Notes under the pieces: generated by a model
Seen by the model: the letters and a program-made list of their open reading frames with translations, nothing else
Databases searched by the model: none
What the model was told of the DNA's origin: nothing
Part shown: positions 11,160 through 11,564 of the stretch, one piece after another
Position numbering within the stretch: the stretch's first letter is position 1
Layout: every line of letters begins with the position of its first letter
NCBI RefSeq assembly: GCF_016887565.1
Contig: NZ_CP069396.1
Location: 2,569,001 to 2,633,000 of the forward strand
Direction of reading: 5' to 3'
Source of the DNA: Archangium violaceum
Lineage (GTDB): Bacteria > Myxococcota > Myxococcia > Myxococcales > Myxococcaceae
Length of the DNA stretch: 64,000 nt
Program-made: the position numbers and the translations under genes

Positions 11160-11202
11160 CAGAAACGACAGAGCCCACCGACCCTCGCGGGATGGTGGGC
11201 TC
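11160..11202 (-). terminator. Attenuator-like hairpin in the metY leader
   Basis: On the minus strand GAGCCCACC (11202-11194) pairs perfectly with GGTGGGCTC (11179-11171). An inner CCC/GGG step closes a GCGA loop, and TGTCGTTTCT follows. It lies 59 bp upstream of the metY start and 29 bp after the stop of a short Met-containing ORF. A strong stem with a weak T-rich tail fits a regulated terminator, not a constitutive one. Confidence 0.55.
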
Positions 11203-11231
11203 CGGACTCGCCACGGGTCGACGAACGTCGG

Positions 11232-11318
11232 TCAACCGGCGGCGGGCTGGCGCCCACCACTCGGCATCCGCATTCGACAGCTGGCGAAAGGCACGGAGTT
11301 CATGTCGGGAGGCAACAT
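11232..11318 (-). CDS. Putative 28-residue leader peptide upstream of metY
   Basis: Short ORF that starts at ATG 11318 behind a strong ribosome-binding site (GGAGGAGGTCC) and ends at TGA 11232. The product begins MLPPDMNSVPFASC and continues with Arg-Met-Arg-Met, then a Gly/Pro/Ala-rich end. Four of the 28 residues are Met, and one is Cys. It precedes the hairpin at 11171-11202, so ribosome stalling at Met codons could control read-through into metY-metX. This is inferred from layout only; no similar peptide is known to me. Confidence 0.4.
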   Translation of the reverse strand: MLPPDMNSVPFASCRMRMPSGGRQPAAG

Positions 11319-11346
11319 GGACCTCCTCCGTCATGTTGTCAAGCTC

Positions 11347-11371
11347 TCCGTTATGCAGGATGTCCGTTATG
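11347..11371. promoter_or_regulatory. Direct repeat TCCGTTATG x2, candidate operator
   Basis: TCCGTTATG occurs at 11347-11355 and again at 11363-11371, 16 bp apart start to start, between the divergent metY leader and the glycosyl-phosphotransferase gene. On the minus strand it reads CATAACGGA twice, so each copy also offers a CATAAC element resembling a -10 box. Either a regulator operator or overlapping promoter elements is possible. Confidence 0.35.
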
Positions 11372-11564
11372 GCGGACGCGTCACGGCCGGGCCCCTCGCA
11401 CGACCCACCATGCCGGGTTGCTCGCCGCGACGTGCCTGGTTGCCTGGTGAGACGCGGGCGGAATATGCCAACGCGGGTAGATCTCCCCTCGCGGAGTGTT
11501 CCCAAGCGACGCCTTCACCGTGGGAAGATGGACTCCATAGGAAATCGGGTGTCACACTATTGAT

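Follow-up and report, generated by a model that had tools for sequence, protein, structure and literature searches.

A predicted Met-codon attenuator upstream of metY-metX in Archangium violaceum, and its Cys-codon counterpart before sulfate-uptake genes

The stretch of Archangium violaceum DNA analyzed here (64,000 nucleotides, referred to as the window) very likely contains, upstream of metY-metX, a transcription attenuator that works through the ribosome and responds to charged Met-tRNA, and this element most likely lets metY-metX be read only under Met shortage. Sequence comparison revealed a conserved promoter, an ORF, sensing codons, two mutually exclusive pairings, a conserved gene context and a codon swap. 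Among these, the copies with Cys codons before sulfate-uptake genes are the strongest evidence at the sequence level, and constitute a stronger unplanned test than covariation. The sequence-only reading from which this work started had proposed translation-coupled attenuation by a Met-codon leader; this has proved to be the best reading, neither of the two outcomes named there as contradicting it was seen, and an antiterminator is now added to it.

Several features reported in that reading were reproduced, including an ORF on the minus strand at 11318-11232 (MLPPDMNSVPFASCRMRMPSGGRQPAAG, 28 aa) with four Met, the final pair only one codon apart, a gap of 29 nt between the end of its stop codon (11232) and the hairpin (11202), a 9-bp stem without mismatch (GAGCCCACC/GGTGGGCTC, 11202-11194 with 11179-11171), and 59 nt from this stem to the metY ATG (11111). 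An inner CCC/GGG stem sits within the 9-bp terminator hairpin, whose T-rich tail (TGTCGTTTCTGG) is imperfect, and the folding energy of 11112-11372 is -128.9 kcal/mol, compared with -102.1 (sd 4.7) in 200 shuffles (z -5.8). Five recurring segments, A, B, P2, D and E, were recognized, of which A pairs with either B or D, and D with either A or E. The parts of the element in the window are as follows, with P(A:D) values taken from the ribosome-masked folding described below.

11337..11342, minus strand: -35 hexamer TTGACA (TTGACA or TTGACT at a fixed 17 bp from the -10 in 52/52 distinct rows)
11314..11319, minus strand: -10 hexamer CATGTT, containing the ATG 11318-11316 of the sequence-only reading (hexamers counted row by row)
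11232..11303, minus strand: predicted Met leader ORF, 23 aa, MNSVPFASCRMRMPSGGRQPAAG, beginning 10 nt past the -10, stop TGA 11234-11232
11271..11273, minus strand: sensing Met codon 1, placing the ribosome front short of segment A (P(A:D)=1.00 when this codon occupies the A site)
11265..11267, minus strand: sensing Met codon 2, 9 nt ahead of A (P(A:D)=0.01 when this codon occupies the A site; the stalled ribosome covers part of A)
11252..11258, minus strand: segment A, GGUGGGC, predicted antiterminator 5' strand in the leader ORF (codons GGT GGG C..), invariant in 48/48 Met elements
11241..11247, minus strand: segment B, GCCCGCC, forming a local A:B hairpin (4-nt loop) or the base of P2
11209..11244, minus strand: P2 hairpin over the leader stop codon, inside the A:D helix (hairpin in all 38 distinct folded segments)
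11194..11202, minus strand: segment D, GAGCCCACC, 5' arm of the terminator as well as 3' strand of the antiterminator
11171..11179, minus strand: segment E, GGTGGGCTC, terminator 3' arm
11159..11170, minus strand: T-rich tail TGTCGTTTCTGG, resembling by eye the tails after gene-end hairpins of these genomes
9822..11111, minus strand: metY, O-acetylhomoserine aminocarboxypropyltransferase (O-acetylhomoserine sulfhydrylase; TIGR01326, 667 bits, cut-off 495)
8337..9701, minus strand: metX, homoserine O-acetyltransferase-like (best family TIGR01392 MetX, E 2.8e-76, 257 bits, under the curated cut-off of 500)

A 157-base DNA query against 96 genomes of the family found matches in 57, comprising 56 Met elements and one Cys-type copy (in G013), and a covariance model of the terminator state recovered the same 56 Met places with E below 1e-18. 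The first gene downstream of these places was metY in 31 and metX in 23, with a contig end in the other two (63 loci in the gene-context listing, 7 of them duplicates). The 56 elements are distributed over six genera. There are 52 distinct rows, which leave 48 distinct elements once identical elements are subtracted. As the element recurs in 56/96 family genomes, and ahead of metY or metX wherever the contig continues, it is more than a product of chance. In genus g38, 23/27 genomes are without a MetY match at E<=1e-100 and the Met leader there precedes metX (for example in L103, L107 and L110); the element therefore follows methionine genes. Outside the family, a search of 195 phylum genomes (including the family's 96), with stricter filters that lose weak matches, gave two weak matches only, both ordinary hairpins. 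All counts exclude loci read as ordinary gene-end or unrelated hairpins (L190, L192, L195, L196, L202, L203 and L204), two loci in the genome of the window read as unrelated (L206 and L207), L010 and a disrupted copy (L235), as well as eight weak covariance-model matches (E 0.002-0.008), a few from the Cys model and short secondary DNA matches.

Conservation of the leader together with the hairpin, which the sequence-only reading had named as support for its proposal, was found, with Met codons in 48/48 distinct elements, and this joint conservation is partly built in because the elements were gathered by their likeness to a query spanning both. No hairpin persisting after loss of its leader ORF was seen among them. 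The reverse occurs in G056 (L205, G056:C443:5602-5739), where an intact Met leader is found with the terminator missing, through either a deletion or an assembly fault.

The covariance model also returned weaker second copies in which Cys codons replace Met (MTFAPATACCCCDAPAVGACPPVA, MSTPSRQEVCCCCRSRRWALVRRQRGG, MRATSASSCCCQDLRVGARAPFA and, in the genome of the window, MPTSPRHRMFCRCLWQEGWVLARRKPEG). With a Cys model, 41 copies were found in the 96 genomes (E<1e-12, one per genome), which together with two of a third type make 43. Thirty-nine of the 41 are in genomes that also hold a Met element, the genome of the window included, and no Cys copy was found by this search in genus g33. The 43 Cys elements contain on average 4.16 Cys and 0.12 internal Met, and their longest Cys run is 4 in 29 elements, 3 in 6, 5 in 1 and 1-2 in 7, the last group including the copy in the genome of the window. 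The first recognized gene after these elements encodes a sulfate-binding protein in 21 cases and a porin followed by a sulfate-binding protein in 16; the remaining six have an ABC binding protein of another sort (3), a second porin (2, one tested and assigned to Pfam PF07396) or a DUF4395 protein (1). The copy in the genome of the window (L177, G000:C1:1537360-1537507, minus strand) is located upstream of genes for a sulfate-binding protein and the CysT/CysW permease. Three copies in genus g15 (L179, L194 and L210, from G065, G064 and G066, respectively) lie about 296 nt before an ABC binding-protein gene of the Peripla_BP_2 family (heme/B12/iron type), and the locus before the DUF4395 gene (L009, G013:C65:4555-4702) carries a Cys-Cys leader on the same scaffold with a GTG start.

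Segment A is read in frame 0 in 48/48 Met leaders and in frame 1 or 2 in 43/43 Cys leaders, and therefore it is the RNA, not the peptide, that is conserved there, with selection acting on the RNA at A and on the codons ahead of it. Both A:D and D:E have 7/7 pairs in 41/43 Cys elements. One position differs in each of A, D and E in the copy from the genome of the window (U-A-U, as against C-G-C in Met elements), and G-U intermediates of this change are present in its near relatives. Thus the codons follow the pathway while the RNA stays, as codon-counting attenuation predicts.

From this arrangement we infer where transcription starts, that the leader is translated and ribosomes stall on it, and that transcription terminates, and we propose the following mechanism. 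RNA polymerase would start a few nt before the short Met-containing ORF, and ribosomes would load on the near-leaderless end. With ample Met, the ribosome would cross segment A (GGUGGGC) just after the Met codons and break its pairings, and D:E would then fold as a terminator ahead of metY. With Met short, the ribosome would stop on a Met codon close before A and leave A free; B would be held in P2, the A:D antiterminator would enclose P2, and RNA polymerase would proceed into metY-metX. The paralogous copy with Cys codons would apply the same switch to sulfate-uptake operons.

Covariation of the stem, a further check suggested by the sequence-only reading, was obtained in part for P2, the alignment used having been made to fit the antiterminator fold. 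Cells with double-sided change (25 vs 9.8 in shuffles), the covariation score (0.147 vs 0.108) and the extent of pairing (89.1% vs 86.4%) each beat all 500 shuffles, whereas the counts of pairs with two-sided change (2 vs 2.4) and of further pair types (13 vs 13.4) showed no excess over the same shuffles. Covariation of the terminator and of A:B is uninformative among Met elements because A, B, D and E hardly vary.

The geometry of the switch was analyzed by folding each transcript as it would be before E is made, with the ribosome footprint masked at given codons. With the first internal Met in the A site, P(A:D) exceeded 0.5 in 48/48 Met elements and, at the corresponding Cys codon, in 40/43 Cys elements; the three Cys elements L180, L185 and L188 showed no A:D at any Cys codon in this test. 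In the window, P(A:D) was 1.00 with Met 11273 and 0.01 with Met 11267 in the A site, and with a stall at the last Met, A is covered in many of the 48 elements and P(A:D)>0.5 was seen in 16. The six codon-by-codon profiles have a P(A:D) close to 0 as long as A lies under the ribosome, with a renewed rise at the stop codon in four of the six (L103, 1.00; L116, 0.98; L212, 0.74; L177, 0.41). A:D was also favoured without a ribosome in 36/48 Met and 17/43 Cys elements, and, when a ribosome occupied the stop codon, in 34/48 and 11/43, respectively. Because A:D is often favoured without a stall, the off state has to come about through the order of folding (A:B first) or the passage of the ribosome, not through equilibrium. 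In the profiles A is freed by a stall at almost every codon that precedes it, so the mask test bears out the geometry but not a specificity for Met.

The attenuators of the trp, his and leu operons of enterobacteria combine sensing codons with a mutually exclusive antiterminator and terminator, and the element described here is similar in these respects. Repeated sensing codons are found in the form of at least two internal Met in 48/48 elements, with metY or metX downstream. A:D, with 7/7 pairs in 48/48 Met elements (as has D:E), is an antiterminator exclusive of the terminator and is favoured at the first Met in 48/48, though ribosome-free too in 36/48. A hairpin with a T-rich imperfect tail, at which termination is predicted, lies between the leader and the gene and is absent in G056. 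The element differs from the enterobacterial attenuators in that the antiterminator 5' strand lies within the leader ORF, right after the sensing codons, and that the antiterminator encloses the middle hairpin. A trp-like region 1, in which the 5' part of the leader would pair with the P2 3' arm, was considered and rejected, its pairing being not above that in shuffles.

The terminator hairpin, with a conserved loop and the T-rich imperfect tail, is present in 48/48 elements (the query used to gather them included the hairpin) and is mutually exclusive with A:D, which argues against the possibility that metY is controlled through translation or Rho, by exposed RNA or a blocked metY ribosome site, and not through intrinsic termination. 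We regard such control as unlikely, even though the T tail is imperfect, the G056 leader has no hairpin, and a third GCCCACC (11132-11126, minus strand) adjoins the metY ribosome site and could pair with E freed when A holds D. This third motif also occurs in near relatives but is absent from the g17 locus read, and tails that look similar by eye are found on gene-end hairpins in these genomes.

We retain attenuation by a leader with Met codons and revise the start of that leader. The start codon proposed in the sequence-only reading (ATG 11318-11316) lies inside the -10 hexamer CATGTT and was found in 4/52 distinct rows, and the strong ribosome-binding site assigned to it (GGAGGAGG) is only 3 nt before this ATG, inside the 17-bp promoter spacer, with GGAGG in 10/52 rows. 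The -35 hexamer is TTGACA in 26 rows and TTGACT in 26, exactly 17 bp from a -10 hexamer that reads TATCCG in 20, TACTTC in 14, CATCTT in 8, TATCCC in 6 and CATGTT in 4, and the gap from the -10 to the leader ATG is 8-10 nt in 52/52. The downstream ATG that opens the leader (in the window the second ATG, at 11303) is kept in 52/52 rows, a count partly built in by the script, which picked the first ATG 28-60 nt after the -35 opening at least 15 codons; a Shine-Dalgarno-like site 4-14 nt upstream of this ATG was found in 0/52 rows. Since a conserved promoter lies over the earlier ATG and ribosome-binding site, the leader mRNA is probably near-leaderless, with transcription predicted to start a few nt before the leader ATG, and the leader in the window is likely the 23-aa MNSVPFASCRMRMPSGGRQPAAG from 11303, with two internal Met codons. 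A 28-aa leader from ATG 11318 with a Shine-Dalgarno site accords with the position of GGAGGAGG in the window and is nevertheless very improbable, given the rarity of its ATG and GGAGG among the rows as against 52/52 for TTGAC(A/T), the 17-bp spacing, the -10 and the downstream ATG, and given that the promoter-to-ATG layout is common to most Cys copies.

Internal Met codons before segment A number two in 15 of the 48 distinct elements, three in 31, four in 1 and five in 1, and internal Met averages 2.81 in 23 aa. Besides the leader of the window, examples are MTSLLAMRRMSMTGGLPPARVG and MTSFFAMMMRRMSMRGGLPPASVG from g38, MFVTSAMCMCSMPVPGGPKPAAAG from g33 and MSASFANMYMCLMPVPGGPKPAAVG from g17. 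The Met codons do not keep their positions from genus to genus and often have Cys codons as neighbours (1.27 on average), and the last Met is replaced by Lys in three leaders (L106, L130 and L144); the GGT-GGG Gly codons of segment A never vary among Met elements. The tail GGxxPAxxG, alike among Met leaders, could be taken to mean that Met or SAM makes the nascent peptide arrest its own ribosome. This is highly implausible, as the tail is what segments A and B encode, the Cys leaders read the same RNA in a different frame and hence have different peptides, and both the positions and the numbers (2-5) of Met codons vary between genera. Least credible of all, despite the strong conserved structure, is a riboswitch or protein-binding RNA with an incidental ORF, as no Rfam family matched and an aptamer would need neither Cys codons before sulfate genes nor Met codons before met genes. 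The sequence-only reading had seen no SAM-riboswitch core, and an Rfam search of the window agreed, with 0 matches at gathering score and none to a SAM/SAH riboswitch or T-box; relaxing the limit to E=10 brought up four unrelated models, all below threshold, and nothing else.

Twelve family genomes have MetY without the element, and in 5 of the 11 upstream regions read (G016, with MetY at the contig start, being left out) another Met/Cys leader was found (e.g. MKSSSASMWMCPEAMLMRGPGMRASAGECCCGCRI). These five leaders (L236, L239, L240, L241 and L245) are located upstream of metY in G012, G071, G011, G101 and G103, and no obvious terminator was found at the five loci. Four of them have ..MRGPG.R..AGECC.. 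in common; CATGCGTGGCCCGGGC is identical in these four loci, which are its only matches in the 195 phylum genomes, and a near copy of GCCCGGGC recurs downstream.

A broader sample comprised the best 80 of 593 metY loci across phyla, which is not random and includes distant loci only, near relatives being excluded. Among these best 80 of 593, a short ORF with at least five Met/Cys in 10 codons occurs at 14 loci, compared with 0.1-0.2 expected from shuffles, and one with at least seven at 8 loci, compared with 0.0 expected. Of 13 further residue pairs in the same 80, those sharing M or C are moderately in excess, and among the others Asn/Gln is raised at >=5 (7 vs 2.35; none at >=6) and Leu/Phe at >=7 (5 vs 1.15). 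The 14 loci come from MAGs and isolates of several phyla (L028, L029, L030, L041, L053, L059, L061, L063, L065, L066, L069, L077, L081 and L083). A SAM riboswitch is present at 39 of the best 80 and at 10 of the 14 with a Met/Cys ORF, after the leader in L029, L061 and L065 and before it in the other seven. A strong hairpin with a T run follows the leader in L028, L029, L061 and L065. We treat this cross-phylum pattern as a lead and not as a result.

Comparable leaders have been described in other bacteria. MetL, before metBA in Campylobacter jejuni, was proposed in 2013 to act through stalling-dependent antitermination (PMC3847290) and has an initiation signal in Ribo-seq (PMC11955535). Like the present element, it is a short ORF, of 20 aa with 3 Met codons, carried by a short RNA upstream of genes for Met biosynthesis. 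It differs in having been discovered through a search for ORFs with a ribosome-binding site, and reports of it are confined to C. jejuni, C. coli and C. doylei; the sections of that article consulted do not mention a Cys twin (PMC3847290). In Streptomyces lividans, metL before metNIQ contains Met/Cys codons (..RCMCRRMCAF), is transcribed leaderless and has a Met pathway downstream, unlike the present element in that its authors found no clear terminator, according to the consulted sections, and that it precedes import rather than biosynthesis genes (PMC8079986); the likeness is drawn from the description. Leaderless polycysteine short ORFs act in mycobacteria (Canestrari 2020, as cited in PMC9094748), following an earlier proposal (PMC4633059). 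These leaderless Cys-run ORFs precede sulfur genes and resemble the Cys copies here, but they belong to Actinobacteria, and no Met version is described in the consulted parts of these articles (PMC9094748, PMC4633059).

The kind of element is thus already known, because Met leaders have been predicted in Campylobacter and Streptomyces and polycysteine ORFs are known from mycobacteria. No Met leader in myxobacteria was seen in the literature searched (open-licence PMC articles). As far as that literature extends, what is new is the conserved two-state RNA, the predicted near-leaderless start, and the occurrence of one scaffold with Met codons and with Cys codons in the same genome.

Met starvation is usually thought to be sensed via SAM riboswitches, T-boxes or repressors. 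We consider it rather probable that single genomes have put one scaffold to use twice by exchanging its sensing codons, with Met codons ahead of met genes and Cys codons ahead of sulfate-uptake genes, and that leader attenuation of metY by sulfur amino acids is widespread in bacteria. The lead from the broader sample points to metY being under such control in several phyla; if true, a charged-tRNA gauge and a SAM gauge would operate in series at ten of the 14 metY loci. For the family itself, the element would represent a Met-codon gauge conserved over six genera, and it suggests a near-leaderless attenuator outside actinobacteria. The Met/Cys twin on one RNA amounts to a natural codon-swap experiment, which makes codon sensing directly testable.
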